NCBI GenBank assembly: GCA_009835735.1
Contig: VXWX01000014.1
Location: forward strand, 1 to 38,561
Direction: 5' to 3'
Origin: Acidimicrobiaceae bacterium
GTDB taxonomy: Bacteria; Actinomycetota; Acidimicrobiia; Acidimicrobiales; Aldehydirespiratoraceae
Length of the DNA stretch: 38,561 bases
Below, piece after piece: positions 14,543 to 37,415 of the stretch. A program made the position numbers and the translations under genes. Each line of letters begins with the position of its first letter. The stretch's first letter is position 1. The notes beneath the pieces were generated by a model. That model did not search any database, had not been told where the DNA came from, and worked only from the letters and a program-made list of their open reading frames with translations.

Positions 14543-15178
14543 TTACTTCCCTTCCCGAACTTCGAGGCCTATTCGCTTCGGCTCTCCGCCATTGGACGCC
14601 GACGTCTCGCTGGGACAGGCCGACACCGCGGCCAGCACGTCGATCTCGGCTCTCAGGTCGATGTAGTCGCCGGCAGCCGCGGGCGACTCCCGGAACACGA
14701 GACGCTGCTCGTCCTCCACGTCGGTGTACATGAAGACGTTGAATACGTCCGGTATCAGATCGGGGTCCACCCCCCAAGGTCTCACCGCCTCCTCCAGGTT
14801 GCCCTGGCACGTCCGGTGACCCGACTCGATGCCGTCGCGGATGTTGTAGACGCCCGCTGAGCAGCGGCCACCGTTCCAAGCGAAATGAACACCCACCGGG
14901 TCGTCGATGACGGTCATCATGGGCCGCTCGTAGGGCGGGCGCGACCACAGTGTCGTGACGCGCCGCATGGTTCCGGTTCCGGCCAGCATGTTGAGCGCCA
15001 CGGTCTGGCCTGCGTGGTAGCCCTCGCGAGGGTTGTCGAGGGCCAGAAAGGTCGAGTCGGCCACCTGGGGACCGTCAAGCGCCACGATCCGGAGCACCTG
15101 TCCGGCCCGAACTTCCACGGCCCGGCCCTCGCATCGCGGCACGACCACTTCCTGCATGACCTGCCCGGGAGGCGTCAT
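14543..15178 (-). CDS. DUF1989 / urea carboxylase-associated family protein
   Basis: A 211-residue protein of the family found beside urea carboxylase and some catabolic operons. Its role is not biochemically settled. Signature segments are CSAGVYNIRDGIESGHRTCQ, then GNLEEAVRPWGVDPDLIPDV, then FNVFMYTDVEDEQRLVF, and near the C-terminus AAAGDYIDLRAEIDVLAAVS followed by ACPSE. Conserved His and Cys residues hint at metal binding. The start MTPPGQVMQEVV at 15178 forms an ATGA overlap with the stop of the Rieske large-subunit gene, a hallmark of translational coupling. No urea carboxylase or allophanate hydrolase is in the window, so its partner here seems to be the oxygenase. Confidence 0.87.
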   Translation of the reverse strand: MTPPGQVMQEVVVPRCEGRAVEVRAGQVLRIVALDGPQVADSTFLALDNPREGYHAGQTVALNMLAGTGTMRRVTTLWSRPPYERPMMTVIDDPVGVHFAWNGGRCSAGVYNIRDGIESGHRTCQGNLEEAVRPWGVDPDLIPDVFNVFMYTDVEDEQRLVFRESPAAAGDYIDLRAEIDVLAAVSACPSETSASNGGEPKRIGLEVREGK

Positions 15179-16488: not shown

Positions 16489-16501
16489 GGCGGCGCGGCC
16501 T

Positions 16502-17065
16502 CTATAGCACGAACGAGAACTTGCGGACGTCACTGCGGCTGTCCACTAGGCGCACGATCTTGAATCTCACCGACCAGTTCTCGCCGAGCGTGGCCAACAC
16601 GTAGTCGTTGCGGCTGGCGAACGGGGTCAACCGATCCTTGCGATGTTCCCAGACCACGGTCGAGCACCGAGCCAGCGTGTCTCCGTCAGCGAGGGGCCAT
16701 GCCTCGACGTTGGACACGATGCGACAAGTACGCGACGGCGGCTCCTGGGCATGAGCCCACCCGGTCTCCAGCAGCCCGATGCGGTCCTCCATGCGACGAC
16801 GGTCATCCAGCAGGTACGAGACCCGGGTACGGGGATCGGCGGCGGGGTCGAGGGGGATCCAGTACACGCAGTCCTGGGTGAACCGGTCCAGCCAGGCCCG
16901 GTAGAGGCGCTCGTCCAAGAGTCGGGCCTCATGGTGGAGGGCCTGCTCAACCGCAGGCCGCAGATCGGGACGGCCAGGCCCGCGCTCAGCCCCGTCCGGC
17001 GCGGCCAGCTCGACAAGCCGCTGGTACAGGCGATCGTCGAGCACCGACGCCGCTGGCGCGTCCAT
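16502..17065 (-). CDS. Rieske oxygenase small (beta) subunit
   Basis: A 187-residue protein of the ring-hydroxylating dioxygenase beta family (SnoaL/NTF2-like cone fold). Typical stretches are QALHHEARLLDERLYRAWLD, then CVYWIPLDPAADPRTRVSYL, then LDDRRRMEDRIGLLETGWAH, and the C-terminal FKIVRLVDSRSDVRKFSFVL. The beta subunit is structural and stabilises the alpha trimer. The start is the ATG at 17065 (MDAPAASVLDDRLYQRLVEL), which overlaps the stop of the aldolase gene by one base (TGATG). A longer open frame upstream runs inside the aldolase gene and is not real. It lies directly before the alpha-subunit gene. Confidence 0.9.
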   Translation of the reverse strand: MDAPAASVLDDRLYQRLVELAAPDGAERGPGRPDLRPAVEQALHHEARLLDERLYRAWLDRFTQDCVYWIPLDPAADPRTRVSYLLDDRRRMEDRIGLLETGWAHAQEPPSRTCRIVSNVEAWPLADGDTLARCSTVVWEHRKDRLTPFASRNDYVLATLGENWSVRFKIVRLVDSRSDVRKFSFVL

Positions 17066-17879: not shown

Positions 17880-19061
17880 TCAGTTGGCCGGCAGCGGCCC
17901 GCTGAACTCGTCGGCCGCCAGGGGGGTGGCCACGTCGGCTCGCACCATCTTCATCACATGGGCGGCCCTGCCCTCCCAGGTGGAGGCCGGGCCCACCCGG
18001 TAGAACGGCGAGCGCAGGTTGTTCATCAGCACCGTCACCATGTCGGTGTCCTCGCGGTTGGTGACAGCCAGGCGGTCAAGTTCGAAGTCCTGCTCCGCGA
18101 TCGACTTGTCGATCCCGTAGACGCGGCTGAAGAGCCGGGTGCGGTCCGGGGCGATGGGATCGGCCCGCACCAGGATGAGCTGCGTGGGGTAGGGCAGAGG
18201 CGTGAGGTTCGGGTAGATGTAGTCGGCGTAGTGGCCCAGGAGCTGCTCGGGGGTCAGGTCGGTGCGCCCGCCGGTGGCGTCCTCCTCGTCGGAGTGGGGC
18301 TTGAAGCCGCTGCAGGTGCGGCCCTCGAAGCGCACGATGGTGTCCATCTGCTTGCGCAGCTTGTTGAGTCGCCGGTGCACGAAGCGGACGTGGTAGTCGT
18401 CGTTGGAGTTCTCGGCGAAGGCCTTCCAGTTGATCGGGTAAGTCTGGTCAAGCTCGCGGTGGTAGCGGGTGAAAGTGCCGAACTTGTAGAGGTCGTATCG
18501 CTCGGCCAGCGGGGCGATCCACTCCGGGAACGGGGGTGCCTTGCGGGACAGGCATCCGAACACGAGCTTGTCCCAGGCCACCTCGATGCGGATGGGCGCC
18601 AGCCCGTAGTCCTCGGTGGGCATGCCCTCGGGGTACATACGGGCCCGGTCGGGGATGCCGACGAGCTGGCCGTCGATGGCGTACGCCCAGTTGTGGTAGG
18701 GGCAGGTCATGGTCTTGCCGCAGTTGCCGGCCGGCTCGAACAGCAGCCCCGAGGCCCGGTGGCGGCAGTTGTTGAGGAAGCCCCGCACCGAGCCGTCCTC
18801 CTGGCGGATCACCATCACCGGCTGGTAGCCGATGGTGCCGGTGATGTAGTCGCCGGGCTCGGCCAGGTCCTCGGTGTCGCCGAGCCACACCCATGACCGT
18901 CCGAAGACCCGCACCATCTCGAGGTCGAACAACTCCTGGTCGAACACCTCGTAGGGCTGGAGCATGGGGCTGTCGAGCGGAGCGTTGACCAGGCCCGATG
19001 TCTCGTCGACGGCGCGGCTCAGACGCTCCACCACAGGCTCGTGCTCCAGGTCCGCGATCAT
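17880..19061 (-). CDS. Rieske non-heme iron oxygenase, alpha-type subunit
   Basis: A 393-residue Rieske oxygenase. The Rieske ligands are C99, H101, C120 and H123 (NNCRHRAS ... MTCPYHNWAY). The catalytic iron site is ENSNDDYHVRFVHRR, with H224 and H229. The protein starts MIADLEHEPVVERLSRAVDE at an ATG preceded, with only six bases between, by TAGGGT, so the message may be leaderless. It differs from the 437-residue alpha subunit downstream and has no beta partner of its own, which suggests an alpha3-only demethylase or monooxygenase. It is followed by the aldolase gene 23 bases away. Confidence 0.92.
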   Translation of the reverse strand: MIADLEHEPVVERLSRAVDETSGLVNAPLDSPMLQPYEVFDQELFDLEMVRVFGRSWVWLGDTEDLAEPGDYITGTIGYQPVMVIRQEDGSVRGFLNNCRHRASGLLFEPAGNCGKTMTCPYHNWAYAIDGQLVGIPDRARMYPEGMPTEDYGLAPIRIEVAWDKLVFGCLSRKAPPFPEWIAPLAERYDLYKFGTFTRYHRELDQTYPINWKAFAENSNDDYHVRFVHRRLNKLRKQMDTIVRFEGRTCSGFKPHSDEEDATGGRTDLTPEQLLGHYADYIYPNLTPLPYPTQLILVRADPIAPDRTRLFSRVYGIDKSIAEQDFELDRLAVTNREDTDMVTVLMNNLRSPFYRVGPASTWEGRAAHVMKMVRADVATPLAADEFSGPLPAN

Positions 19062-20058: not shown

Positions 20059-20135
20059 GGGGTGATGTTAGCTACGCCGCTCGGCAGTGGACCCACGACG
20101 CGATCAACGCAACGGTGCGACAATGAGAGACGCCG

Positions 20136-21887
20136 ATGACCTCACCTGAAGCCAACCAGGCCATCCGATACGAGCCGGACGAACGGTGCCCGCCGCTGAT
20201 CGCGCTGGGTGTCGGCGCTCAGGGGGTCATGCTGGTGCTGGCCACGATCGTGCTGATCGTGGCCATAACTGCCCGCGCCGGTGATCAGGACGACAGCTAC
20301 CTCACCTGGGCCGTGTTCGCATCCCTGGTCATCGCCGGGGCACTCACCGCGCTGCAAGCCAGCCGGTTCTGGCGGCTCGGCGGTGGGCACATCCTGATCA
20401 TGGGCCCCACGCCCAACTATGTGGCCATCTCCGTGCTGGCGTTGACAGCCGGAGGCCCGGCCCTGCTCGCCAGCCTCACCGTGGCGGCGTCGCTCTTCTA
20501 CCTCGGGCTGTCTGTCTGGCTCCCACTGGTGCGCCGGATCCTCACTCCGGTCGTGTCGGGGACGGTGCTCATGCTGATCGCAGCCGCGATCCTGCCCGTG
20601 GCACTCGACCGGGTCAACGAGGTGCCCGAGGCCGCACCCGCCGCGGCTGGCCCCTTGGCTGCCCTGGTGACGCTCATCGCGGTGGTCGCCCTGTCGCTGC
20701 GAGTGTCGGGGTCCTGGCGAATCTGGTCGCCATTCATCGCCATCGCGGCCGGCTGCGTGGTGGCCGTGTTGTTCGGCGCTTACGACGTCGAGCACATCGG
20801 CGACGCCCGATGGATCGGACTGCCCGGCGGCGGGTTCCCCGGACTCGACTTGACTCCCGGCGTCGACTTCTGGGCGCTGCTGCCGGCCTTCGTGGTGGTG
20901 GCCCTGGTGGGCAGCGTCAAGAACATCGGCGACTCCATCGCCATCCAGCAGGTCTCATGGCGCCGGCCCCGAGTGACCGACTTCCGGCTGGTGCAGGGTT
21001 CGCTCAACACCAACGGGATCGGCATCCTGCTCTCAGGCCTGGCCGGCACACCGCCGACGAGCGTCTACTCGTCGTCCAGCCCGTCACTGATCAACCTCAC
21101 CGGCGTGGCCGCCCGCCGTGTCGGCTATGCCGTCGGGGCGCTCATGGTGGTGCTTTCCCTGCTGCCCAAGGTGACGGCTGTGCTCCTCGCCATCCCCAGT
21201 CCGGTCATGGGTGCCTACCTGCTCACCGCCGTCGGAATCCTCTTCGTCAGCGGCATCCAGACCGTCGTAAGCGACGGCCTCGACCGGGGCAAGGCCCTCA
21301 CCGTGGGAATCGCGTTCTCGGTGGGCGTCGGCCTGGACAACCAGACCATCGGCGCAGACCTGATGGGCGAGACATGGGGGCCGCTGCTCGACAACGGCAT
21401 GCTGGCCGGTGCTCTCGTCGCGGTGCTGATCAGCCAGTTCGTGGAGCTGACTAGCCGCGGCCGTCGGGCGCGCCTGCGGGTCGACCTGCACCCGTCGGCC
21501 GTCGGTGAGATCGACGAGTTCCTCCACGGTTTCGCGTCCGACATCGGATGGGACGAGGCGGCCGCACAGCGACTTCGGTCGGCCGGCGAGGAGACGCTGG
21601 CAAGCCTGCTGGAACAGGGAGGCGACCGCTCCGTCGACGGCGCGCCCAGCCTGATCATCGCAGTCCGTCACAGCGGCACGGTGGTGGAGATGGAGTTCCT
21701 GGCCGTGTTCGAAGAGCAGAACCTCGAGGACCGGCTGGCCCACCTGGGCGAGGAGTCCCAGAGCACCGCCGGCATGGAGGAGGGCGAGATCTCGCTCCGG
21801 CTGTTGCGGCACTACGCGTCGTCGGTGCACCACCAGAAGTTCCACGGGCTCGATGTCGTGACGGTGCAAGTTAGAGAGACGGGCTAG
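20136..21887 (+). CDS. NCS2-type (xanthine/uracil family) permease with C-terminal degenerate ATPase-like domain
   Basis: A 583-residue membrane protein. Residues about 18-440 have around a dozen hydrophobic segments that follow the UraA/NCS2 plan: GAQGVMLVLATIVLIV at the start, and VQGSLNTNGIGILLSGLAGT, then INLTGVAARRVG, near the middle. At the place where NCS2 carriers have the QNxG signature this protein reads SSSSPS, so nucleobase specificity is doubtful. Residues about 445-583 form a soluble tail that looks like an RsbW-type histidine-kinase ATPase: EIDEFLHGFASDIGWDEAA, then RLRSAGEETLASLLEQG, then ISLRLLRHYASSVHHQKFHG, then LDVVTVQV. The N-box Asn and the DxGxG loop are not seen. GAGAGA lies five bases before the ATG. 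It is divergent from the MBL gene. Confidence 0.83.
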   Translation: MTSPEANQAIRYEPDERCPPLIALGVGAQGVMLVLATIVLIVAITARAGDQDDSYLTWAVFASLVIAGALTALQASRFWRLGGGHILIMGPTPNYVAISVLALTAGGPALLASLTVAASLFYLGLSVWLPLVRRILTPVVSGTVLMLIAAAILPVALDRVNEVPEAAPAAAGPLAALVTLIAVVALSLRVSGSWRIWSPFIAIAAGCVVAVLFGAYDVEHIGDARWIGLPGGGFPGLDLTPGVDFWALLPAFVVVALVGSVKNIGDSIAIQQVSWRRPRVTDFRLVQGSLNTNGIGILLSGLAGTPPTSVYSSSSPSLINLTGVAARRVGYAVGALMVVLSLLPKVTAVLLAIPSPVMGAYLLTAVGILFVSGIQTVVSDGLDRGKALTVGIAFSVGVGLDNQTIGADLMGETWGPLLDNGMLAGALVAVLISQFVELTSRGRRARLRVDLHPSAVGEIDEFLHGFASDIGWDEAAAQRLRSAGEETLASLLEQGGDRSVDGAPSLIIAVRHSGTVVEMEFLAVFEEQNLEDRLAHLGEESQSTAGMEEGEISLRLLRHYASSVHHQKFHGLDVVTVQVRETG

Positions 21888-21888
21888 C

Positions 21889-21905
21889 CCGGCCTTCGGG
21901 GCCGG
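21889..21905 (+). terminator. Hairpin directly after the permease gene
   Basis: CCGGCC (21889-21894), loop TTCGG and GGCCGG (21900-21905) form a 6-bp all-GC stem starting two bases after the permease stop codon. No U-tract follows. It may stop or slow transcription before the hydrolase-synthase unit. Confidence 0.35.
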
Positions 21906-21918
21906 CTCCAGCACCCGG

Positions 21919-21924
21919 TACGAT
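21919..21924 (+). promoter_or_regulatory. Putative -10 element for a leaderless hydrolase/PKS message
   Basis: TACGAT ends seven bases before the hydrolase ATG (21932), and no ribosome site is visible upstream of that ATG. The spacing fits a leaderless transcript starting at the start codon. The -35 candidate TTCGGG (21895-21900) is poor and lies inside the hairpin. Support is positional only. Confidence 0.28.
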
Positions 21925-21931
21925 CCACCCG

Positions 21932-22837
21932 ATGGCCTCGGAAGCTGACTGGATCCTTCCCGAGCCACTGTCGGTCCACGACGTACCGGTGGAGGGGGAC
22001 GCCACCATTACCTTGCGCCGGCACGGGAACCCGGAGGGCACCAGGCTCATCCTGAGCCACGGAATCGGTCTCTCGATCGATCTCTACTACCCGTTCTGGT
22101 CGCTGCTGACCGCGGAGTTCGACGTCGTCATCTACGACCTCAGGAGTCACGGCTGGAACGCGGCCAGCCCACTGTCGGACCACACCGTCCCCACCTTTGT
22201 CGACGACCATGACCGGGTCCTCGACGCCATCGACAGCCGCTTCGGCGCCAAGCCGCAAGTGGGCGTGTTCCATTCGGTGTCGTCCCTGGCTCCCCTGCTG
22301 TCCACCACCGAAGGTCGCCGGTTCTCGGCGCTCGTCCTGTTCGATCCCCCCCTGCGCAAGCCGGTTGAGACCCGCAACGAGTTCGACGAGGCCGTCAAGC
22401 GGGCAGCCAGGATGGCCGAGCGCCGCACCTATCATTTCGAGACTCTGGAGGCCTACACCGATCTGCTCGGCTTCCTGCCTGCGTACCGGCATACGGTTCC
22501 GGGCGTGCACGACCTGATGGCGCGAACCACGCTGCGCGAGGCTGCAAACGGCTCCGGTTACGAACTCCGCTTCCCCCGGGAGCACGAGGCGCAGATCATG
22601 GCTCATGCCAGGATCTTCGCGGTCCTGGTCGATCTGGATGCTCTGCAATGCCCGACCAAGGTGATCGGCGCCGACCCGACGCTGCCCTACTCGTACCTCC
22701 CCACGCTTGACTTCGGCGAGATGCTGACAGTGGACTACGACTTCCTGCCCGACGCCACGCACTTCCTCCAGCTGGAGCAGCCGGACAAGTGTGTGGCCAT
22801 CATGCGCAAGTTCCTGGAGCCGATCGGCCTTGCCTGA
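21932..22837 (+). CDS. Alpha/beta-hydrolase fold protein, coupled to the polyketide synthase gene
   Basis: A 301-residue alpha/beta hydrolase. The oxyanion segment is LILSHGIGLSIDLYYPFW, strand 4 reads FDVVIYDLRSHGWN, and the nucleophile elbow is VGVFHSVSSLAP. That elbow is an unusual form of GxSxG (FHSVS), with Ser in HSVS as the likely nucleophile. The C-terminal catalytic His is in FLPDATHFLQLEQPDKC. It could be an esterase, thioesterase or C-C hydrolase. Its stop overlaps the likely TTG start of the synthase by 8 bases, so it is probably translationally coupled to it. Because the synthase has no thioesterase domain, this protein is a candidate for chain release or editing in trans. Confidence 0.85.
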   Translation: MASEADWILPEPLSVHDVPVEGDATITLRRHGNPEGTRLILSHGIGLSIDLYYPFWSLLTAEFDVVIYDLRSHGWNAASPLSDHTVPTFVDDHDRVLDAIDSRFGAKPQVGVFHSVSSLAPLLSTTEGRRFSALVLFDPPLRKPVETRNEFDEAVKRAARMAERRTYHFETLEAYTDLLGFLPAYRHTVPGVHDLMARTTLREAANGSGYELRFPREHEAQIMAHARIFAVLVDLDALQCPTKVIGADPTLPYSYLPTLDFGEMLTVDYDFLPDATHFLQLEQPDKCVAIMRKFLEPIGLA

Positions 22838-25800
22838 CCCGGCGCCACACGCTGGAGGCCCGCCGGGGCCCATAGCGGTTGTGGGCATGGCGTGCCGGTT
22901 TCCCGGCGCGCCCGATATACCGGCCTTCTGGCGGCTCCTGGACGAAGGCGACAGCGCCATAACCGAAGGTGTGCCGGGGTCCGGGGTGGGACGTGTCGGT
23001 GAGCTGTTCACCGACCCCGGAGTGCAGAACAGCGCATGCCGGTTCGGCGCCTTCATCGACGGGATCGACCAGTTCGACGCCGCCTTCTTCCGCATCTCAC
23101 CAGTGGAGGCCCAACTGCTCGACCCGCAGCAGCGGCTGATGCTGGAAGTCAGCTGGCAGGCCCTCGAGGACGCCGGCATCGACCCGGACCGGCTCAAGGG
23201 CAGCCGCACCGGCGTCTACGCGGGCATAAGCAACAACGAGTACCGGACTCTGGTGCTCGACGGGAACGACACCGCGGAGCCCGCCGCCAGCCTCTACTCC
23301 GTCGCCGGGACCTCGTTCAACACCGCCATCGGGAGGGTCGCCTTCGCGCTCGGGCTGCGAGGCCCGGCCATGGCCGTGGACACGGCCTGCTCCTCGTCAC
23401 TGGCGGCCGTGCACCAAGCCGTGTCCGGCCTCCAGAGAGGCGAGGCCGACCTCGCCCTCGCCGGCGGGGTGCACGCCATCCTGTCGGGCCGCCTCTTCGA
23501 GCTGCGAGGCAATGCGGGGATGCTGGCGCCCGACGGGCGATGCAAGACCTTCGACGCGGCTGCCAACGGCTACGTGCGGGGCGAGGGCTGCGGGCTCCTG
23601 GTGCTGAAGCGCCTCAGCGACGCCGAGGCCGACGGGGATCGGATCTGGGGCGTGATCCGGGGCACGGCGCTGAACCAGGACGGTGCCAGCCAGGGTCTTA
23701 CCGTCCCGAACGGCGAGGCCCAGCAGCAAGTGATCGCCGATGCCCTGGCCTGGGCGGGCGTCACACCCGCGGACGTGGACTACGTGGAGACCCACGGCAC
23801 GGGCACACCGGTCGGCGATCCCATCGAGGCCGAGGCCACCGGGATGGCCTACCGCTCCGGACGGGACCGTCCGCTGTTGATCGGGTCGGTCAAGACCAAC
23901 GTCGGCCATCTCGAGTCGGCCGCCGGCGCGGCGAGCCTGATCAAGGTGATGCTGGCCATGAAGCGAGGGGTCATTCCCTCCCATCTCAACTTCCGTGACC
24001 CGAATCCCGAGATTCCGTGGGACCGGCTGCCGCTGCAAGTCACCGCGGAGCCCACGAATTGGCCCCGCCACGGCGACCGCCGGCCGCTGGCCGGGGTCAG
24101 CGGGTTCGGTTGGTCGGGCACCAACGCCCATGTGGTGGTGGAGGGGTACGGAACCCCGGACGCGGCCCTTGAGGGTGAAGACCCGCGGCGATGGCTGCGG
24201 GGGCCGGCCAGGCCCGTCGCCATCGATTCGCCGTCGGGGGTGGGCGACCCAGCGACCGCGCCGGCGGCTCGGCCCGCCCGGCTGCTGCCCTTGTCGGCCA
24301 AGACCGGCGACGCCCTGCGGGAGACGGCGGCCCGTTACGCGGGGTGGCTCGAGGAGCGCTTCGAGGATCCGTCCGGCGACGAGGAAGCGGACCTGCTGCT
24401 GTCTGACGCAGCCTGGACCGCAGGGGTGGGACGGAGCCACTTCGCCCGGCGGGCCGGCGTCGTGTTCTCGGACGGGGATTCACTGAAGGCAGGGTTGAGA
24501 GTGCTCGCGGAGGGCGACGAGCCGCCGCGCCGGACGGCCACCAAGGTCGCCTTCGCCTACACGGGCCAGGCCAGCCAGTGGGTGGGCATGGGCCGCGCCC
24601 TCTACGACTCCGAGCCGGTCTTCCGGGCCGTCCTGGACCGCTGTGACGAGGCGCTGCGATCCGAGCGCGGCGCCAGCCTGCTCGACGTGATGTTCGGCGT
24701 CGGCGCCGACGCCGAGGATCTGGACGATCCGGCCTGGACCCAGCCGTGCATCTATGCGATCGAGTGCGCCCTGACCAGCCTCTGGTCCAGCGTCGGAGTC
24801 CAACCTGATGTGGTCGTAGGCCACAGTCTCGGAGAGATCGCGGCCGCCCATGCCGCCGGGGCTCTCAGCCTCACCGATGGGCTGCAGTTCGCAGCCGCCC
24901 GCGGCGCGCTCATGGGCGCACTGCCCGAGGACGGTGCCATGGCCGCGGTGTTCGCCACGCCGGAGCGAGTGGCAGCTGCGGTCACCGAACTCAACGCCTC
25001 GACCGGAGGCTCGCCGGCGAGCGTGGCCGCCGACAACGGGATGCATCAGGTGATCAGCGGCCCGGCCAACAAGGTCGAGAGCCTTCTCGAAGGCTTCGAG
25101 TCCGAGAAGGTGTGGGTTCGCAGGCTGCGCAAGAGCCCCGCCTACCACAGCGCGCTGGTGGAACCGGCCCTGGACGACCTCGAAGCGGTGGTCGACAGCA
25201 TCGAGACGGTGGAGCCGTCGGTCTCGTACGTGAGCAGCATGACCGGCCAGGTGATGGACGCGGGCCAGGCCCTTGACGGCCGGTACTGGCGGCGCCAGGC
25301 CCGAGCCCCGGTCGCGTTCCGCACCTGTGTCGAGACGCTGGCCACCATGGGCGTGGACACGGTGATCGAGATCGGTCCCGACACGGTGCTGGGCCCCACC
25401 GTCGCCACCGCATGGCCCTCCGAACCGGGCACGGCCGAGCCCGCTATCGCCTCCAGCATGCGGAAACCGTCGGCCGGCAAGCCGGACCCGCTCGACGGCA
25501 GCGGGTTCCTCGACGCGGTAGCGGCCGCTTACGGTGCTGGAGTCGACGTGTCGTTCGAGGGCCTCTTCGCAACTGAGAGCCGACGCCGCGTCCCCCTTCC
25601 CGGCTACCCGTTCCAGCACCAGCGCCACTGGGTGGAGGCCCCTCGCCGGCGCAGGCAGACCGCAGGCCACCCGCTGCTGGGAACACGCCACGACTCCCCG
25701 CGGGGCGAGACCCTCCACACCACCGATATGTTCGCCTCGGACCCGGCGTGGCTCGGCGACCACCGGGTGTACGGGCGGGTGATCATGCCGGGCGCGCTGT

Positions 25801-28800
25801 ACGGCTCGATGGCTGCGGCGGCCTGCGAACCGCAGGGTGATTCAAAGTCGCTGATCGTGGAGGACCTTCAACTCCACAGCCCGATGATCTTCGAAGAGGA
25901 CGACCCGGAGGACGCCGCCGAGGCCGCCGGACGCACCGTGCAGTTCGTGCTCGACCGCGCCGACGGGGCGGCGCCACGCCGATTCGAGGCGTTCAGCCGC
26001 TCCGACGGCGAAGACGGATGGACCCTGCACGCGCAGGGTCAGGTGACGTCCGGTGCCAGCCCGTCGCCCGATACCGAGCCGCTCGAACTGGAGCAACTCG
26101 AGGCCGATCTCACCGCAGTCGACATCGCGGAGTTCTACCGGGCCCGGGCCGATGCGGGAGTGGACCTCGGCGAATCGTTCCGCACGCTGCACTCGCTGTC
26201 GGTTGGCGACGGCGAGGCGCTGGGCGAGGTGGCCCTGCCCGACGGCGTGGACGGCGGCGGCGCGGTGATGCACCCTCTCCTGCTCGACGGCTGCTTCCAG
26301 GTGATGGCCGCCGCTCGACGCACCACCGGTGCGGAGGACGGTTCCCCCTACCTGCCGTTCGGATGGGAGCGACTGTGGCTCGACGGCCCGCTGGAGGACC
26401 GGCTGCTCTGCCATGCCCGCCTCCGCGAGCCGGGGGGCGGTGCCGAGGGCGAACCGGCGGGGCCCCGTGAGGTGATCGCGGCCGACCTTCGGTTCTACAC
26501 CCTCGACGGCATCAGCCTCGGCGGACTGGACTCCTACACGGTCAAGCGGGCCACCCGGGCGGCTCTGCTCTCGGCGTCCGAAGGGCTCGACGACCTGCTG
26601 TACGAGGTTGCGTGGCGGGACCAACCCCTACCCGACGGAGTGGTGCCCGCCGATTTCCTTCCAAGCCCTGCGGTGGTAGCAGCCCGCTCCAGCCCGTTCG
26701 AGGCGTACCTGGAGGCCGCAGGGGTGGACACTGCCGGCCGGGCCAGCCTGCTGACCGACCTGGAGCGGCTGTCGTGGCGCTATGCGCTGCAGGCGCTGGA
26801 GCGCCTGGGCTGGCAGCGCACCGAGGGCGACGAGATCGAGTCCGACAGCCTGCGCCAGCAACTGGGAGTGCTGCCCGAGCACGGCCGCGTCTTCCGCCGG
26901 CTGTTCGAGTTGCTGGCCCGCGCGGGTGTGGTCGAGGCCGCCGGTGACACCTTCGTTGTCAGGTCTGGGTCCATCGACTCGCTGTCGCCGGAGATGCCCC
27001 GGGACCCGGAGGAGTTCGCGGCCGAGATGGCCGGCCGGTACGAGCACGGCTCGACCGAGATCGGTCTGTTCCGGCGCAGCGCCGACGCCCTGGCCGAGGT
27101 GCTCACCGGCGACACCGACCCGCTGACGCTGTTGTTCAGCAGCGGTGAGCCCACCGCGGCCGACCTGTATCTCAAGGCGCCGGTAGCAAGGGCGGCCAAC
27201 CAGATGCTGGCCGACGCGGTGGCGGCCCTGCTGGAACAGCTGCCCGACGACCGGAGGCTGCGAGTGATCGAGGTCGGTGCCGGCACCGGCTCGGCCACGG
27301 CCGCGGTGCTGCCGGAGCTGCCCGAGGGGCGCTTCGACTACACCTACACCGATATCTCCGCGGGCTTCTTCGCTGAAGCCGAGGGGCGTTTCGGCGGCCG
27401 CGAGGCGTGCATCGAATACCGGGTGCTCGACGTCGAGAAGGACCCGGCCGCCCAAGGCTTCGACTACCACAGCTACGACCTGCTCATCGCGTCCAACGTG
27501 CTGCACGCCACCCGCTACCTGTCCGAGACGCTGGAGCACTGCCGGAACCTGCTGGCACCGTCGGGCCATCTCGTGGCCCTCGAGAACCTGCGGGGGCAAG
27601 GCTGGCTGGACCTGACTTTCGGGCAGCTGGACGGCTGGTGGCGTTTCGCCGATTCCTGCCGGCCGCACCACGCCCTGGCCGGCCCCGCCGTATGGCGGCA
27701 GGCACTCGCCGACGCCGGCTTCGATGGGGCCGAAGTCCTGGGAGCGGACGAGTCCGATCCCGACCAGGAGCCCGATCGGGGCGTGATCCTGGCCCAGGGT
27801 CCGGCCCAGGTGACCGAGCGCCCCGGAGTGTGGGTCCTGGCCGCCGATCAGACCGGAGTGGCCGGCGAGTTGGCCACCCGGTTGGCAGCCCGCAACCAGA
27901 CGGTGGTGCTGGCCACCGACAAGACAGGGCCCGAGCAGGTTCCGATACCCCAATCCAGCGGGATCTCGAGAGCAGCCATCGACATGGAACAGCGCTCCGA
28001 TTGGCTCGCACTGTTCGAGAGCCTCCCGCCGGAAGTGCCCTTGGGCGGGGTGGGGCACTTCACCGCCCTGGACAACCGTGGCGCCCAAGCCGCCACTGGT
28101 GAACTGGCAACCGACGTGAAGAGGGCCACAGCGACTGCGCTCGCACTCATGCAGGGCCTCACCGATGCCGATGTGGCCGTGGCCAAGGGGGTGTGGTTCG
28201 TGACCCGGGGCGGCCAGGTGCTGGCCCACGAACGGGTCGACGGTCTGGCCGGCGCCGCGCTGTGGGGTTTCGGGAAGGTTGCGGGCCGGGAGGCAGCCCA
28301 TCTCCAGCCGAGGATGATCGACCTGGACCCTGCGGAGAACATGCCGTTGCCCGACCTCTCCGAAGAGTTCCTGTACCCCGATCCCGAAACGCACATCGCC
28401 TACCGCACCGGGCACCGCCAGACCGCCCGGCTGGTGCGGACCTCCACCGGCACAGAGCGCCTGAGCCTGCCCGAGCCGGCCGGCGAGTCGGCCTGGCTGC
28501 TCGAACCCGATCCTCAGGGCGCGCTGGAGGGGCTCGGTGTGGAAGCCGCGCCGGACCGCCCGCTGGCAGCCGGAGAGGTCCGTGTGGCCGTGCTGGCCAC
28601 CGGGCTCAACTTCTGGGACATGTTCCGATCACTGGGGGTGATCGACGAGGGTCTGCTGGGCGGCGAGTTCTGCGGGCGGGTGCTCGAAGTCGGGCCGGGC
28701 GTGACGACGGTGCAGGAGGGCGACCGGGTGGTCGGTCTGGCCTTCGGCACCTTCTCCTCGGAGACGGTGACGTGCGAGGAGATGATCGCCCCCGCCCCAC

Positions 28801-31800
28801 CCGACCTTCCCGCCGCCGCGCTGGCGACGATGCCGACCGCGTTCGTGTCTGCCGCCCTGTCGTTCGACTGTTCGGGCCTGGACTCCGGTGAGAAGGTCCT
28901 CATTCACGCCGGCGCCGGCGGGGTGGGCCTAGCGGCCATCCAGCTGGCACAGGCCGCGGGAGCCGAGGTGTTCGCCACCGCCAGCGCCCCAAAGCAGGCC
29001 TACCTGCGCTCGCTGGGCGTGAGGTACGTGTTCGACAGCCGCTCCACACAGTTCTCGGACCAGATCCTCGAAGCCACCGGGGGCACCGGCGTCGACGTTG
29101 TGCTCAACAGCCTCACCGGCCCCGGCTTCATCGACGCCAGCCTGGCGTGCCTGGCGCAGCGCGGCCGGTTCGTGGAGATGGCCAGGGTGGACATCCTCAG
29201 CCACGACGAGATGTCCGAAGCACGGCCCGATGTCGGCTACTGGATCCTGGAACTGGACGTGCTCAAGGAGCACGACCCGGCCCAGCCGGGCGAAGCGCTG
29301 AGGCGAGTGATGCAACGCCTGGAGGCCGACGAGTTGAAGCCGCTGGTCCACACCAGGTGGTCGCTGGCCGAAGCCGGTCCGGCCATGAAGTACATGCAGG
29401 CCGCTCGCCACATCGGCAAGATCGTCTTCGCATCGTCGCCGCTCGAGACCGGACGGCTGCGCGCCGATCGGACCTACCTGGTGACCGGCGGCCTGGGCGG
29501 CATCGGCTGCACGATGGCCGAGTGGCTGGCCGACCGCGGGGCCGGCGCCATCGTGCTAAACGGTCGGCGCGACCCCGACCCCGAAGCCGCCGCGGTCATC
29601 GACGGGCTGCGCGAGCGTGGCGCCACGGTGAGCGTGGAACTGGCCGACATGACCGACGCAGCCGCGGTGGACGCCATGCTGGGCCGCATCGCCGACACGT
29701 TGCCGCCGCTGGGCGGAGTCATCCACAGCGTGGGCGTGCTGTCGGACGCCTCGCTGCAAAACCAGAGCTGGGAGAGGTTCGAGCAAGTGCTGTGGCCCAA
29801 GGTGCTGGGTGCCTGGCAGCTGCACCGAGCCACGATGGACCTCGACCTCGACCTGTTCGTGCTGTTCTCGAGCGTGGCCGGCGTGATGGGAAACGCGGGT
29901 CAGGCCAACCATGCAGCAGCCAACGCCTTCCTCGACGTGCTCGCGGCCCATCGCCGGTCGCGGGGGCTGGCAGCACAATCCATCGCGTGGGGAGCGTGGT
30001 CGGGCCTCGGCGAGGCCGAGGAGCACCGGGAACGGATCGCCGGACAGTTGGAGGCAGCCGGGACGGGCTGGATCACCCCCCAGCAGGGCCTGAGGGCGTT
30101 CGACCGGCTCGTCCGGCAGGATCCGACGGCGCCCATGGTGGCGTCGGTGGACTGGCAAGTGGTGGCCGAGGGCGGCCAGCACCGCTCGCCGTTCGTGGAA
30201 GACCTGCTGGCCGCGGCCGGCCGTTCCGGAGAGCATCAGGAGACGCAGGCCGATCTGCTCTCGGAGTTGGGCCAGTCGCCACCGGCCGGGCACGAGCAGA
30301 TCCTGATCGAGTTCCTGCGGCGGGAGCTGCAAGCGGTGATGCGCCTGCCCAACCTGCCGGCTCCGTCGGCCGAGTTCGCCGATCTGGGGATGGATTCGCT
30401 GATGGCGGTGGAGTTCAGGAACCGTGTGAACCGCGGCTTCGCTGGCGCCTACTCGGCAGGCAACACGGTGGTGTTCGACTATCCCAGCGTTCAGAGCCTC
30501 GCCGCCCATCTGGCATCGGAACTGGCCGAACTGGGCACGATCGAGCACGCCGACACCGGTGCCGACGCGCGTTTCGCCATACAGGCCCCGACCGACCCCG
30601 CCGAGACGGGCCGAACGGAGCGGCCGGCACCACCGGAACGGCCCGAGCGGGCGGAGCAGGCTGACGGGAGCGACCCTGTGCCAGCGGCCGCCACCGTGCA
30701 GGACAGCCCCGCGGCGCCGGTCGCGCCGCCGAGCATGACCGGTAACCGGGGGATCGCCATCGTGGGCATGGCCTGCCGGTTCCCCGGCGCGCCCGACCTG
30801 GACAGCTTCTGGCGCCTCCTGGAGGCAGGTGAGAACGCGGTCACCGACGGGCGCCGGGACCCCGGTCCCTGGAACGGCGCATCCGGGGATCCCGACAACC
30901 CGGATCCCGGCAGCCGGATCGGAGCGTTCGTCGAGGGCATCGACCAGTTCGACGCGGGCTTCTTCCGGATCAGGCCCATCGAGGCCCGAATGATGGACCC
31001 CCAGCAACGAATGCTGCTCGAGACGACATGGCAAGCACTCGAGGACGGCGGCATCGATCCGTCCAGCCTGAAGGGAAGCCGCACCGGGGTGTACGCCGGT
31101 ATCGGCGGCAGCAGCGAGTACCGAAGGGTGATCGCCGCGGCCGGCCGGGGCGACAGCTACTTCGGCACGACCTCGAGCGTGGCCGTCGGACGGATCGCCT
31201 TCACTCTGGGCCTCGCCGGACCGGCCGTGCCGTTCGACCTGGCCTGCGCTTCATCGCTGGTCGCCATTCACCACGCGGTCACCGCGCTGCAACAGGACGA
31301 AGTGGACATGGCTCTGGCCGGAGGGGCCAACGCCGTCCTGTCCCCGTCCATCGCGAAGTTCCTCGAAGAGACCGGCATGCTGTCGGCCAGCGGGCAGTGC
31401 CGGGCCTTCGACGCCGGCGCGGACGGCTACGTTCGAGGCGAGGGCTGCGGCATGGTCGTGCTCAAGCGGCTCGACGATGCGATCGCCGCCGGCGACCGGA
31501 TCTGGGGCGCGGTTCGGGGCACGGCCGTGAACCAGAACGCGACCGGCCTCGGCCTCACCCAGCCCAACGGCCCGGCGCAGATGCAAGCGATGGAGCAGGC
31601 CCTGGAGCGAGCGGGAGTAATGCCCGCGGAAGTGGACTATCTGGAGGCCCACGGACCGGGCTCACCGTTCGGCGACGCGGTCGAGATGAACGCGGCCGCC
31701 AGCGTCTACGGCCGCGGCCGCGACCCCGAGGAGCCGCTGCTGGTCGGTTCGGTCAAGACCAACATCGGCCATCTGGAGTGCGCATCGGCCGTGGCCGGTG

Positions 31801-32489
31801 TCATCAAGACGGTGCTGGCCATGAACCGAGGCAAGATCCCCAGGCATCTGCACCTGACCGAACCCAGCGAGCAGATCGACTGGGAGCGCCTGCCGGTGCG
31901 GGTCACCACCGAGGCGACGGATTGGCCGGAATCTGACACGCGGCCCAGGCTGGCCGCAGTGAGTTCGTTCGCGATCTCCGGCGCCAACGCTCATCTGGTG
32001 CTCGAAGGGTACGACGCGGGCCCCGAAGCGGGAACGGCCGGCATTTCGCAGCCGGTCCCCGGGACGCGGCTGCTTCCGCTGTCGGCGCGATCCGATAAGG
32101 CCCTCCGCGAGCTGGCCGGCCTCTACCTCTCATGGCTTGACCAGCGGAGCGCCGAACCCTCACCCGCAAGCCCCTCGCCCGAAGAGCTGCTGGCCGACAT
32201 GGCATGGACGGCCAGTGTGGGACGCAGCCACTTCGATTGTCGCTCCGCAGTCCTGTTCAGCGACATCGAGTCTCTGCGCGAGGGACTGCAGGCGGTTGCG
32301 GCCGGGCAACCGCAGAGGGCTCAGGATCATGAGGCCAGCCCGGTGCAGGCCGTCGCGGCGGACTACGAGGCCGGGGGTGATGCGGCGTTCCGCGAGTTGT
32401 TCGAGGGTGAACGCCGATCCCGTGTATCGCTGCCGGGCTATCCGTTCGAGCGCCGCCGCCACTGGGTGGAGCCACTTAGTCCCGGTTAG
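22830..32489 (+). CDS. Large type I polyketide synthase: KS-AT-DH-CMeT-psiKR-ER-KR-ACP-KS (terminal AT-less)
   Basis: About 3,219 residues from TTG 22830 (GGAG at 22816-22819); GTG 22791 in the same frame is an alternative start. Domains, with nucleotide positions: KS1 22863-24150, with Cys codon 23388 (DTACSSS), His 23793 (THGTGT) and His 23907 (NVGHLE). AT 24543-25470, with Ser 24825 (GHSLGE), WTQPCIYAIE and SPAYHSALVEP, which suggest malonyl. DH 25660-26570, with His 25761 (DHRVYGRVIMPG) and Asp 26286 (LLDGCFQ). C-methyltransferase about 26700-27800, with SAM loop EVGAGTGS at 27272-27290. Structural pseudo-KR 27820-28440. ER 28500-29430, with HAGAGGVGLAAIQ. KR 29455-30000, with TGGLGGIG but His instead of the catalytic Tyr (29910). 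ACP with Ser 30396 (LGMDSLMAVEF). A Pro/Glu-rich linker. KS2 30745-32010, then linkers and stop. There is no thioesterase. The first module appears complete for a fully reduced, alpha-methylated chain and probably acts iteratively, as in fungal highly reducing synthases. No homology search was possible. Confidence 0.93.
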   Translation: MPDPAPHAGGPPGPIAVVGMACRFPGAPDIPAFWRLLDEGDSAITEGVPGSGVGRVGELFTDPGVQNSACRFGAFIDGIDQFDAAFFRISPVEAQLLDPQQRLMLEVSWQALEDAGIDPDRLKGSRTGVYAGISNNEYRTLVLDGNDTAEPAASLYSVAGTSFNTAIGRVAFALGLRGPAMAVDTACSSSLAAVHQAVSGLQRGEADLALAGGVHAILSGRLFELRGNAGMLAPDGRCKTFDAAANGYVRGEGCGLLVLKRLSDAEADGDRIWGVIRGTALNQDGASQGLTVPNGEAQQQVIADALAWAGVTPADVDYVETHGTGTPVGDPIEAEATGMAYRSGRDRPLLIGSVKTNVGHLESAAGAASLIKVMLAMKRGVIPSHLNFRDPNPEIPWDRLPLQVTAEPTNWPRHGDRRPLAGVSGFGWSGTNAHVVVEGYGTPDAALEGEDPRRWLRGPARPVAIDSPSGVGDPATAPAARPARLLPLSAKTGDALRETAARYAGWLEERFEDPSGDEEADLLLSDAAWTAGVGRSHFARRAGVVFSDGDSLKAGLRVLAEGDEPPRRTATKVAFAYTGQASQWVGMGRALYDSEPVFRAVLDRCDEALRSERGASLLDVMFGVGADAEDLDDPAWTQPCIYAIECALTSLWSSVGVQPDVVVGHSLGEIAAAHAAGALSLTDGLQFAAARGALMGALPEDGAMAAVFATPERVAAAVTELNASTGGSPASVAADNGMHQVISGPANKVESLLEGFESEKVWVRRLRKSPAYHSALVEPALDDLEAVVDSIETVEPSVSYVSSMTGQVMDAGQALDGRYWRRQARAPVAFRTCVETLATMGVDTVIEIGPDTVLGPTVATAWPSEPGTAEPAIASSMRKPSAGKPDPLDGSGFLDAVAAAYGAGVDVSFEGLFATESRRRVPLPGYPFQHQRHWVEAPRRRRQTAGHPLLGTRHDSPRGETLHTTDMFASDPAWLGDHRVYGRVIMPGALYGSMAAAACEPQGDSKSLIVEDLQLHSPMIFEEDDPEDAAEAAGRTVQFVLDRADGAAPRRFEAFSRSDGEDGWTLHAQGQVTSGASPSPDTEPLELEQLEADLTAVDIAEFYRARADAGVDLGESFRTLHSLSVGDGEALGEVALPDGVDGGGAVMHPLLLDGCFQVMAAARRTTGAEDGSPYLPFGWERLWLDGPLEDRLLCHARLREPGGGAEGEPAGPREVIAADLRFYTLDGISLGGLDSYTVKRATRAALLSASEGLDDLLYEVAWRDQPLPDGVVPADFLPSPAVVAARSSPFEAYLEAAGVDTAGRASLLTDLERLSWRYALQALERLGWQRTEGDEIESDSLRQQLGVLPEHGRVFRRLFELLARAGVVEAAGDTFVVRSGSIDSLSPEMPRDPEEFAAEMAGRYEHGSTEIGLFRRSADALAEVLTGDTDPLTLLFSSGEPTAADLYLKAPVARAANQMLADAVAALLEQLPDDRRLRVIEVGAGTGSATAAVLPELPEGRFDYTYTDISAGFFAEAEGRFGGREACIEYRVLDVEKDPAAQGFDYHSYDLLIASNVLHATRYLSETLEHCRNLLAPSGHLVALENLRGQGWLDLTFGQLDGWWRFADSCRPHHALAGPAVWRQALADAGFDGAEVLGADESDPDQEPDRGVILAQGPAQVTERPGVWVLAADQTGVAGELATRLAARNQTVVLATDKTGPEQVPIPQSSGISRAAIDMEQRSDWLALFESLPPEVPLGGVGHFTALDNRGAQAATGELATDVKRATATALALMQGLTDADVAVAKGVWFVTRGGQVLAHERVDGLAGAALWGFGKVAGREAAHLQPRMIDLDPAENMPLPDLSEEFLYPDPETHIAYRTGHRQTARLVRTSTGTERLSLPEPAGESAWLLEPDPQGALEGLGVEAAPDRPLAAGEVRVAVLATGLNFWDMFRSLGVIDEGLLGGEFCGRVLEVGPGVTTVQEGDRVVGLAFGTFSSETVTCEEMIAPAPPDLPAAALATMPTAFVSAALSFDCSGLDSGEKVLIHAGAGGVGLAAIQLAQAAGAEVFATASAPKQAYLRSLGVRYVFDSRSTQFSDQILEATGGTGVDVVLNSLTGPGFIDASLACLAQRGRFVEMARVDILSHDEMSEARPDVGYWILELDVLKEHDPAQPGEALRRVMQRLEADELKPLVHTRWSLAEAGPAMKYMQAARHIGKIVFASSPLETGRLRADRTYLVTGGLGGIGCTMAEWLADRGAGAIVLNGRRDPDPEAAAVIDGLRERGATVSVELADMTDAAAVDAMLGRIADTLPPLGGVIHSVGVLSDASLQNQSWERFEQVLWPKVLGAWQLHRATMDLDLDLFVLFSSVAGVMGNAGQANHAAANAFLDVLAAHRRSRGLAAQSIAWGAWSGLGEAEEHRERIAGQLEAAGTGWITPQQGLRAFDRLVRQDPTAPMVASVDWQVVAEGGQHRSPFVEDLLAAAGRSGEHQETQADLLSELGQSPPAGHEQILIEFLRRELQAVMRLPNLPAPSAEFADLGMDSLMAVEFRNRVNRGFAGAYSAGNTVVFDYPSVQSLAAHLASELAELGTIEHADTGADARFAIQAPTDPAETGRTERPAPPERPERAEQADGSDPVPAAATVQDSPAAPVAPPSMTGNRGIAIVGMACRFPGAPDLDSFWRLLEAGENAVTDGRRDPGPWNGASGDPDNPDPGSRIGAFVEGIDQFDAGFFRIRPIEARMMDPQQRMLLETTWQALEDGGIDPSSLKGSRTGVYAGIGGSSEYRRVIAAAGRGDSYFGTTSSVAVGRIAFTLGLAGPAVPFDLACASSLVAIHHAVTALQQDEVDMALAGGANAVLSPSIAKFLEETGMLSASGQCRAFDAGADGYVRGEGCGMVVLKRLDDAIAAGDRIWGAVRGTAVNQNATGLGLTQPNGPAQMQAMEQALERAGVMPAEVDYLEAHGPGSPFGDAVEMNAAASVYGRGRDPEEPLLVGSVKTNIGHLECASAVAGVIKTVLAMNRGKIPRHLHLTEPSEQIDWERLPVRVTTEATDWPESDTRPRLAAVSSFAISGANAHLVLEGYDAGPEAGTAGISQPVPGTRLLPLSARSDKALRELAGLYLSWLDQRSAEPSPASPSPEELLADMAWTASVGRSHFDCRSAVLFSDIESLREGLQAVAAGQPQRAQDHEASPVQAVAADYEAGGDAAFRELFEGERRSRVSLPGYPFERRRHWVEPLSPG
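30745..32489 (+). other. Terminal KS2 region with excised AT (part of the synthase)
   Basis: KS2 has Cys 31245 (DLACASSL), His 31650 (EAHGPGSPFGD) and His 31770 (NIGHLECASAVAG), so the C-H-H triad is kept but the surrounding motifs differ from KS1. After it comes the KS-to-AT linker (LPLSARSDKALRELAG, then MAWTASVGRSHFD, to about 32310). It is joined directly to a post-AT linker (VQAVAADYEAGGDAAFRELF, then RRSRVSLPGYPFERRRHW, 32340-32470). In module 1 the same two linkers are separated by a ~970-base AT. No AT, KR or ACP follows in any frame before the next gene. Confidence 0.85.
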
Positions 32490-32592: not shown

Positions 32593-32832
32593 ATGTCATC
32601 CACCGAAGAACGGATTCGAGCACTTGTGGACGCGAACCTCCAGATCGAGGGCCGCGAGGCAGGCTCGCCGCTGACCCCGGATCTCAACATCGTCGACGCA
32701 GGAGTCAGCTCCACGGATGTGGTGGCGTTCTGGAGGCTCGTGTGCGAGGAGTTCGGCGTCGACATTCCGGCCGAAGAGTTCGCAGAGCTCTTGACGCCGA
32801 GCGACTTGATCGCGTATCTGGACGCCCAGTAG
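32593..32832 (+). CDS. Discrete acyl carrier protein
   Basis: A 79-residue stand-alone carrier protein with the four-helix pattern of the ACP/PCP family: MSSTEERIRALVDANLQ (helix 1), NIVDAGVSSTDVVAFWRLV (start of helix 2), EEFGVDIPAEEFAEL and TPSDLIAYLDAQ. The attachment serine is S40 by alignment with GxDSL, though S39 precedes it and the usual Leu is Thr (GVSSTD). AAAGGA lies six bases before the ATG. It follows a synthase that ends in a KS without its own ACP, and precedes a phosphopantetheinyl transferase, so it is the best candidate to carry the unit used by KS2. Its codon use (cga, ctt, ttg, tca, gaa) is less GC-biased than its neighbours, which may mean a different history. Confidence 0.9.
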   Translation: MSSTEERIRALVDANLQIEGREAGSPLTPDLNIVDAGVSSTDVVAFWRLVCEEFGVDIPAEEFAELLTPSDLIAYLDAQ

Positions 32833-32853: not shown

Positions 32854-33597
32854 ACTCCTCTCCCGTCCGGGAAGCTCCTCACGCCGGTCCTTCCGGCAAC
32901 TGAGGGGTCAGAGCATTGGTGCAGTGCGTTCCGCGCCTTCGATGATGTCCGCGTACTGCATGTAGACCTGTCGACCGGCGATGGGCGTGAGCAGCGCGCC
33001 CTGCAGTGGCTCAACGGCACCGAGCAGCGCCGGCGAGAACGGTTCGTGTACGAGAGTCCTAGGCACCGGTTCACGCTGTGCCGGGCCGCACTCCGATCCG
33101 TGCTGTGCCGGGAACTCGGCTGCAGCAACGAGCACCTCGCCTTCCGGACCTCTAGGCACGGCAAGCCGTACGCCACCGTGCGCGGGCGGCGCGCTCCGAT
33201 CAGCTTCAACGTGAGCCACAGCGGCACCCACGGGCTGATCGCCCTAGCACCCGGCGGGCAGGTCGGGATCGATGTCGAGGAGCGGGTTCCCCACCGGAAC
33301 CTCGACGAGTTGATCGAGGCAGTGTTCGGCCCCAACGAGAAGCAGGAGTTGTCCGCGGCGAACAATCGGGATCGGCTCCACCTGTTCTTCAGGCTCTGGA
33401 CGATGAAGGAAGCACTGAGCAAGGCCCACGGAATGGGCCTGTCGTTGGACGTGTCCCGCTTCGAGATCCCGCCGGACATGAGGGCCGGCGCAACCAGCGG
33501 CTCTGTCCGGCTCGCTGGCATACCGGGATGGAGACTCGAGGACATCAGCACCGACCGCTTCGCGGCCGCGGTCGCCTACGAAGGCCGCGGCCGATGA
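32851..33597 (+). CDS. Sfp-type 4'-phosphopantetheinyl transferase
   Basis: About 248 residues if it starts at CTG 32851, the usual length for Sfp-type enzymes. The first standard start, GTG 33046, gives only 183. The enzyme transfers phosphopantetheine from CoA to carrier-protein serines. The N-terminal half, before GTG 33046, contains FDDVRVLHVDLSTGDGRE and LNGTEQRRRERFVYESPRHR, which fit the family's beta-alpha start. Core motifs are GKPYATV, FNVSHSGTHG, VGIDVEERVPHRNLD (Mg-binding Asp and Glu) and FFRLWTMKEALSKAHGMGL (WxxKEA). It starts 18 bases after the ACP stop, and its stop overlaps the dioxygenase start (ATGA). It should activate both the integral ACP and the discrete ACP. Confidence 0.88.
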   Translation: MTPLPSGKLLTPVLPATEGSEHWCSAFRAFDDVRVLHVDLSTGDGREQRALQWLNGTEQRRRERFVYESPRHRFTLCRAALRSVLCRELGCSNEHLAFRTSRHGKPYATVRGRRAPISFNVSHSGTHGLIALAPGGQVGIDVEERVPHRNLDELIEAVFGPNEKQELSAANNRDRLHLFFRLWTMKEALSKAHGMGLSLDVSRFEIPPDMRAGATSGSVRLAGIPGWRLEDISTDRFAAAVAYEGRGR

Positions 33598-36245: not shown

Positions 36246-37415
36246 ATGACGGTTCTGACCGACGAACTCCTAGACAGCTTCACCGATTCCGTCGGCCCGG
36301 TGGGCGAGGCCCGGCTGCTGCCGCCGGTCCTCTACACCTCGCCGGAGTTTTACGAGTTCGAACGGCGGGCCATCTTCCAGCGTGAATGGCTCTGTGTGGG
36401 TCGGGCCGACCAGTTGAAGGAGCCAGGCGACTTCCGCTGCATCACCATCGCGGGCGAACCGCTGATCGCGGCCCGGGACTCAGACGGCGAACTCCGGGTC
36501 ATGTCGGCCGTGTGCCGCCATCGGGGCATGGTCATCGCGGAGGAATCCGGCAACTGCCGCCGCTTCACGTGCCCCTACCACCACTGGACCTACGGGCTCG
36601 ACGGCGAGTTGCTGGGCACGCCGGCCATGGAGCGGACGGAGGGCTTCGATCGGTCCGACCATCCGCTGCCGCAGCTCAAGGTGGAGCTGTGGCAGGGGTT
36701 CATCATGGCCAACTTCGACCACGACGCCTCGCCCTTCGGTCCGACCATGACCAAGATCGACGACATGCTCATCAACTACGGGCTGGAGTCGACGACCACC
36801 CTCGGAGGCAAGACGATCCCTGACCTTCCGTGGAACTGGAAGGTCATGATGGAGAACTTCAACGACCCCTACCACGCCAGCCGGCTGCACGGCCCGCTCC
36901 AGACTTTCGCTCCCAGTCACATGAACGACTTCCTGCCCTGGGACGACCACGACGGCGCCATCGGCCGGATCCAGCACTTCACCGACATCGACAGCTCGTT
37001 CAATCCCACCCAGCGCTGCATCTTGCCCGTGTTCTCCAACCTGACCACCGAGCAGCGCAAGCGGGGCGGCTTCGTGCTGATCCCGCCCACGCTGGCGCTG
37101 GCCATCGTCCCCGACGAGGTGGCCTACTTCATCATCAGCCCGCAGGACGCCGGCAACATCACCATCCACATCGGCTACTGCCTGGAGCCATCGGCGCTGG
37201 AGGACCCCCTGTTCGACTACCTGTTCAAGGCGGCCGAGGACGGCGTCAACAACTTCAACGAACAGGACATCTACGTAGACGCCATGACGCAGCGGGGCCT
37301 CAACTCGCATCTCGCGCCCCGCGGTCGCTACTCGTGGCAGGAGGAGACGCTGGTGCAGTTCAACCGCTGGCTGGTGAAGCGCTACCGCGAGCACTGGCCC
37401 GCCAACGGCGCCTGA
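36246..37415 (+). CDS. Rieske non-heme iron oxygenase, alpha-type subunit
   Basis: A 389-residue Rieske oxygenase. Rieske ligands are C90, H92, C109 and H112 (SAVCRHRGMV ... FTCPYHHWTY). The mononuclear iron site is ENFNDPYHASRLHG with D207, H210 and H215. It has no adjacent small subunit. GAGGA occurs about seven bases before the ATG at 36246. The 123-base gap upstream contains TAGGTT (36189-36194) and a weak CGGG-CTCT-CCCG hairpin (36151-36162), so it may begin a new transcription unit. A flavin-reductase-fold gene follows 36 bases later and might contribute electron supply, although Rieske systems usually use ferredoxins. Confidence 0.92.
   Translation: MTVLTDELLDSFTDSVGPVGEARLLPPVLYTSPEFYEFERRAIFQREWLCVGRADQLKEPGDFRCITIAGEPLIAARDSDGELRVMSAVCRHRGMVIAEESGNCRRFTCPYHHWTYGLDGELLGTPAMERTEGFDRSDHPLPQLKVELWQGFIMANFDHDASPFGPTMTKIDDMLINYGLESTTTLGGKTIPDLPWNWKVMMENFNDPYHASRLHGPLQTFAPSHMNDFLPWDDHDGAIGRIQHFTDIDSSFNPTQRCILPVFSNLTTEQRKRGGFVLIPPTLALAIVPDEVAYFIISPQDAGNITIHIGYCLEPSALEDPLFDYLFKAAEDGVNNFNEQDIYVDAMTQRGLNSHLAPRGRYSWQEETLVQFNRWLVKRYREHWPANGA

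Follow-up and report, generated by a model that had tools for sequence, protein, structure and literature searches.

The window analysed here, a stretch of 38,561 nucleotides from an Acidimicrobiaceae genome (contig VXWX01000014.1), encodes a type I PKS that ends on a second KS (KS2), behind which the KS-AT linker and the post-AT linker are joined and the protein stops. This raises two questions: how did the AT between these linkers come to be missing, and what might a KS do at the very end of a cis-AT synthase? A preliminary description of the sequence had read the site as the clean excision of an AT, leaving an AT-less, ACP-less terminus distinct from the AT-docking remnants of trans-AT systems.

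The absence of the AT is clear within the window. The Pfam AT model finds a single stretch in the ORF, which is AT1, while the Pfam KS-AT linker models fall on ORF residues 3094–3172. In translation, the motifs 3′ of KS2 run SVGRSHF (KS-AT linker), AVAADY, LPGYPF and RRHWV, up to the stop codon at 32487–32489. Searched against its own genome, the tail gives two separate matches (51% and 48%), to both linkers flanking AT1, which lie about 0.92 kb apart around AT1 and are contiguous behind KS2. Aligning the linkers of the two modules, a check that the preliminary description had proposed, recognises both halves of the junction where it had placed them. By Pfam, neither KR, DH nor ACP lies downstream of KS2 within the same ORF. 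The PKS is predicted to comprise one module, with full reduction and C-methylation, plus the extra C-terminal KS2 (Table 1).

Table 1. Features of the PKS locus, with positions in the window.
Feature	Position	Strand	Basis
NCS2-type permease, recurrent; SupE-like by type and position only	20136..21887	+	Pfam; 20/50 loci
Alpha/beta hydrolase, recurrent, overlaps PKS start	21932..22837	+	Pfam; 33/50 loci
Type I PKS, KS1-AT1-DH-MT-ER-KR-ACP-KS2-linker-linker-stop	22791..32489	+	ORF, translation, Pfam
KS1	22869..24155	+	Pfam
KS-AT linker, module 1 (scar comparison)	24276..24539	+	51% to tail, E 1.8e-20
AT1 with GHSLGE, AYHS and small subdomain	24552..25466	+	Genome AT search, alignment
Post-AT linker, module 1 (scar comparison)	25458..25637	+	48% to tail, E 2.7e-11
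KS2 with its catalytic Cys, both His and Lys	30750..32015	+	Pfam, alignment
KS-AT linker behind KS2	32058..32300	+	Pfam PF22621 and PF22336, alignment
Junction at site of missing AT, loosely constrained	32301..32354	+	Alignments, dN/dS
Post-AT linker LPGYPFERRRHWV, last residues, stop	32355..32489	+	Translation, alignment
Discrete acyl carrier protein, proposed KS2 partner	32593..32832	+	Pfam PF00550; 44/50 loci
Phosphopantetheinyl transferase, start codon uncertain	32908..33597	+	Pfam ACPS, orthologues; 24/50 loci

The same ending, which the preliminary description had suggested looking for, occurs in related genomes. We searched 100 relatives, the window's own genome included, with the tail (threshold E 1e-8); 14 gave a match, and 11 of these 14 have the continuous linker–linker tail, at 100% to 51% identity and in two families of the order. 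A tail 98% identical lies on a 236 kb contig (G009) and an AT2-less tail on a contig of 3.6 Mb (L161 in G394), while in G013 and G007 the tail region is interrupted by contig ends. In G001 (L043) the KS-AT linker has been lost too, and KS2 runs directly into EARRRISLPGYPF, a further step of erosion. Within the wider class, a close KS2 match was found in 26 of 395 genomes; 19 regions were fetched and 15 used (left out were L146, on the contig of L047, the cut L148, and L163 and L164, which are KS1), giving 4 AT2-less tails and 11 tails with a degenerate AT2 (pseudo-AT). L164 (G253) is a collapsed cluster in which KS1-AT1 is broken inside AT1 and continues in frame into a permease-like C-terminus. 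Plasmid and phage collections yielded nothing but KS matches, all below 60% identity.

More distant relatives show what stood at the junction. A scan of GTDB genomes, restricted to the best 80 of 580 relatives, gave 79 loci (L047–L125), of which the 46 loci L047–L092 were analysed and L093–L125 left out. The loci belong to uncultured MAGs from a wide range of phyla and for the most part share the domain order of the window, several being cut; the SB, COS, RHO and APA MAG series we take to derive from sponges. The KS2 tail is closed in 38 of the 46 (the exceptions being L051, L066, L069, L079, L081, L082, L083 and L092), and in 35 of these 38 a shortened AT sits between both linkers behind KS2. 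The regions from the wider class and further loci (39, less four KS1 matches, two cut loci and seven duplicates) brought the set to 91 closed tails and, with L169 set aside for a frameshift inside its pseudo-AT, to 90 classified ones; L044–L046 are outside this set, L037 and L039 are in it but outside alignment A1, and L058, whose frame is lost ahead of the post-AT linker, was counted as pseudo-AT. A pseudo-AT is present in 71 of the 90 tails and no AT in 19.

All 71 pseudo-ATs lack the small subdomain and the catalytic His, with at most 9 of 70 residues remaining, and the nucleophile column reads Gly in 59, Asp in 7, Ser in 3 (L086, L194 and L196), Ala in 1 and Asn in 1. As a control, both Ser and His are present in 44/44 AT1 domains (45 matches in 50 loci, the match in L049 being removed because it was its AT2). 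L194 and L196 have an intact GHSLGE despite the absent small subdomain and possibly represent the earliest stage of decay; the Ser may therefore have outlasted the subdomain. For L048, the predicted structure shows the pseudo-AT as a folded core (mean pLDDT 82.5), and in a fold search the complete model matches KS-AT didomains. In the two pairs compared, dN/dS was 0.42 and 0.26 for pseudo-AT2 versus 0.13 and 0.10 for AT1. By sequence comparison, then, KS2 is shown to have once stood before a second AT. In none of the 71 tails with an AT2 is this domain a working one; nor do any of the 90 tails hold a complete AT, the finding in homologues that the preliminary description had set against its own reading. 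Its picture of a working AT cleanly excised finds no support in that form, since an AT-derived domain, never complete, occupies 71 of the 90 homologous tails; with a dead partial AT so common, the loss looks like stepwise decay.

The final step of this decay, complete loss of AT2, took place on three or more occasions. In a tree built from 65 KS2 sequences and rooted on four KS1, absence of AT2 requires five changes, at least three of them forced by starred branches, and placing the 19 AT2-less tails in one clade is rejected (AU test, p 7e-43), which rules out a single loss. The AT2-less rows are the window with the other Acidimicrobiia, a group of 17 with two pseudo-AT rows inside it, L072 (Nitrospirales) and L089 (Gammaproteobacteria); the AT2-less calls of L047, L072 and L089 come from one MAG each. 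Members of different phyla intermingle on this tree, pointing to movement of the cluster by horizontal transfer. The KS2 domains of L072 and L193 are 93% identical, one with a pseudo-AT2 and the other without; by eye, their linkers look less alike than their KSs, possibly a trace of recombination at the end of KS2.

While the AT decays, the KS does not. In the 50 loci aligned, the catalytic Cys, the second His and the Lys of KS2 are present in all 50 and the first His in 47. Loss of the first catalytic His marks a non-elongating KS0; the KS2 of the window has this residue, whereas L060, L078 and L080 have Gln or Asn in its place with the other three residues kept. These three are KS0-like variants, so that condensation is not universal in the family. 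Values of dN/dS (Nei–Gojobori, own script) are 0.07–0.17 for KS2 in six pairs versus 0.08–0.11 for KS1; they are 0.13–0.39 for the post-AT linker, 0.13–0.75 for the KS-AT linker and, where defined, 0.24–1.06 for the AT junction. KS2 is thus shown to be under strong purifying selection with its catalytic residues kept.

The resulting terminus resembles those of trans-AT synthases. Modelling of the C-terminus, also proposed in the preliminary description, gave a KS2 end (mean pLDDT 83.4) shaped like a trans-AT KS core: the model of KS2 plus its two linkers aligns near full length with the solved trans-AT KS cores 4na2, 4tkt and 5e5n (TM by target 0.83–0.88), although the top matches by E-value are cis KS-AT didomains, their AT being left unmatched. 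The contrast with trans-AT systems drawn in the preliminary description therefore fails for architecture. The bacillaene PksJ/PksL and isomigrastatin MgsE/MgsF KS cores have the same KS-linker-linker order without an AT and align with it over nearly their full length, and the composition of a trans-AT module (KS, KS-AT linker and post-AT linker, without AT) is what the tail contains. The likeness is one of architecture and fold; the trees of the window's KS2 covered KS1 and KS2 only. The structure alignments comprised 32 and 31 rows, a subset of the sequences. In the window model the KS-AT linker has three helices, similar to that of the AT-bearing L048 model, the mark of trans-AT being extra LINKS helices. 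Unlike trans-AT KS cores, the protein has a cis-AT of its own, AT1. Trans-AT KS cores, which keep the KS-AT linker (PMC11907408), and split modules in trans-AT PKSs, where one protein has a KS as its C-terminal domain (PMC9113145), are both already known.

The window has the arrangement of such a split module, its KS ending one protein and an ACP being carried on another, in a PKS that, unlike the trans-AT examples, otherwise relies on a cis-AT. The discrete ACP gene begins 103 bp past the PKS stop, and the separate adjoining ACP that belongs with a terminal KS is thereby present. The claim of an ACP-less end accordingly stands for the polypeptide and falls for the locus. An iterated profile finds the free ACP in 44 of the 50 loci, sometimes upstream or on the opposite strand; it was not found in L049, L058, L075, L077, L086 and L088, some of which have several kb of flank. 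Its attachment Ser is present in 44/44. The residue before this Ser is Ser in 37, Pro in 3, Asn in 3 and Ala in 1, and Asp in none of the 44. Against models of acyl carrier proteins from fatty acid synthesis, the free ACP gives scores that stay below the cut-offs. Beyond AT1, the only other AT match in this genome is FabD, on contig C81 together with a KS-family gene. No stand-alone, PKS-dedicated AT was found; at a genome completeness of 84%, a dedicated trans-AT could be missing.

The neighbouring genes are recurrent to different degrees. The counts for the phosphopantetheinyl transferase, hydrolase and permease in Table 1 are minimum values, since loci are truncated, and clustering of the neighbours yielded mostly shadow frames. 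Among the orthologue loci, the amidase and the Rieske gene at 36246 were found only in congeners, and PhyH only in some congeners. Three Rieske-type oxygenase genes lie near the PKS (15175–16533 and 17880–19061 by similarity, 36246–37415 by Pfam), and the last ≈180 residues of the NCS2 permease are without a Pfam match. In L063, a partial second PKS copy (20082–22498) and a second hydrolase lie near the first cluster.

The module and its neighbours suggest what family this is. The synthase is most likely a Sup-type (sponge symbiont ubiquitous) PKS, an assignment by type of module and type of neighbour in which SupA and SupE are set beside the window by description only. Sup is described as a small monomodular PKS (PMC4245539) and SupE as a permease (PMC3908369); the window shares the small one-module PKS of SupA, to which it adds the extra KS2, and, by type and position, a permease neighbour. 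Mid-chain-branched fatty acids have been proposed as Sup products (PMC4245539), and from these an MT domain may be inferred for Sup. The same source states that supA, formerly given to Poribacteria, is absent from the poribacterial genome; among our GTDB-scan loci, drawn from the best 80 of 580 relatives, Poribacteria is named in none. A sponge-specific KS clade is placed mostly in Gemmatimonadetes and Alphaproteobacteria (PMC10308959), hosts that it has in common with the relatives of the window. Sup clusters are reported as recovered across sponges (PMC9426513), and Sup-type clusters are mentioned elsewhere (PMC12795557). The terminal KS2 of the window, the pseudo-AT of its relatives and the absence of AT2 from its lineage differ from Sup in the descriptions covered here, which present a one-module enzyme and name no second KS. 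No description of a terminal KS or a broken AT in Sup was found in the literature covered, the earliest Sup reports lying outside it, and in that literature the product of this widespread PKS is unproven. Two Bryobacterales loci, L079 and L081, hold multi-module PKSs whose AT matches span about 800 bp and whose KSs are 60–63% like those of the window; PKSs of this type are a possible source of the one-module type.

What, then, might KS2 do? We believe, with rather more confidence than doubt, that the locus is a Sup-type PKS in which AT2 has been lost and KS2 works with a free ACP fed in trans. KS2 would receive the chain, once processed, from the ACP within the protein and, together with the discrete downstream ACP, would act as a split module carrying out an extension step, with AT1 or FabD providing the malonyl for the free ACP in trans. 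The least certain part of this explanation is whether KS2 catalyses condensation or simply passes the chain on, and KS2 and the free ACP may be co-inherited just because the whole cluster moves. If KS2 only handed the chain to the free ACP, the AT would have been useless and would have decayed for that reason, as the 71 crippled AT2 domains and the absence of reductive domains behind KS2 could suggest; the KS0-like L060, L078 and L080, the fatty-acid-synthesis models to which the free ACP scores below cut-off, and the pairing of FabD with a KS-family gene on C81 lean the same way. We nevertheless regard hand-over as rather unlikely, because 47 of the 50 KS2 domains retain the Cys, both His and the Lys needed for decarboxylative condensation. 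That KS2 and the linkers serve a purely structural purpose, as a tail for dimerisation or docking, would fit a pseudo-AT2 that still folds in the L048 model and is still constrained in both pairs, but is highly improbable with Cys, second His and Lys in 50/50 loci and a KS2 dN/dS close to that of KS1. A deletion or chimera introduced into the window by assembly, the genome being a draft of 167 contigs, can be rejected with near certainty, since the tail is in frame, is common to 11 of the 14 matching relatives and has the identical layout in other genomes, G009 and G394 among them.

The MT domain and the full reduction in the module lead us to expect a methyl-branched chain. It is conceivable, if doubtful, that the family has repeatedly evolved a trans-AT-like terminus in a cis-AT PKS, with KS2 and the free ACP as an exit port that would hand the C-methylated chain to this ACP and onward to type II fatty acid synthesis, leaving the methyl branch mid-chain; AT2 would then have died by loss of its small subdomain and been deleted independently in several lineages. 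One protein family offers a natural series that starts with an intact AT (AT1), passes through a pseudo-AT lacking the small subdomain and ends with the AT fully excised and the KS still in place, a direct look at how a cis-AT module can become trans-AT-like. The series also shows the linker boundaries that nature tolerates after removal of an AT, a point of interest to PKS engineering, and names the free ACP as a testable partner for a widespread PKS.
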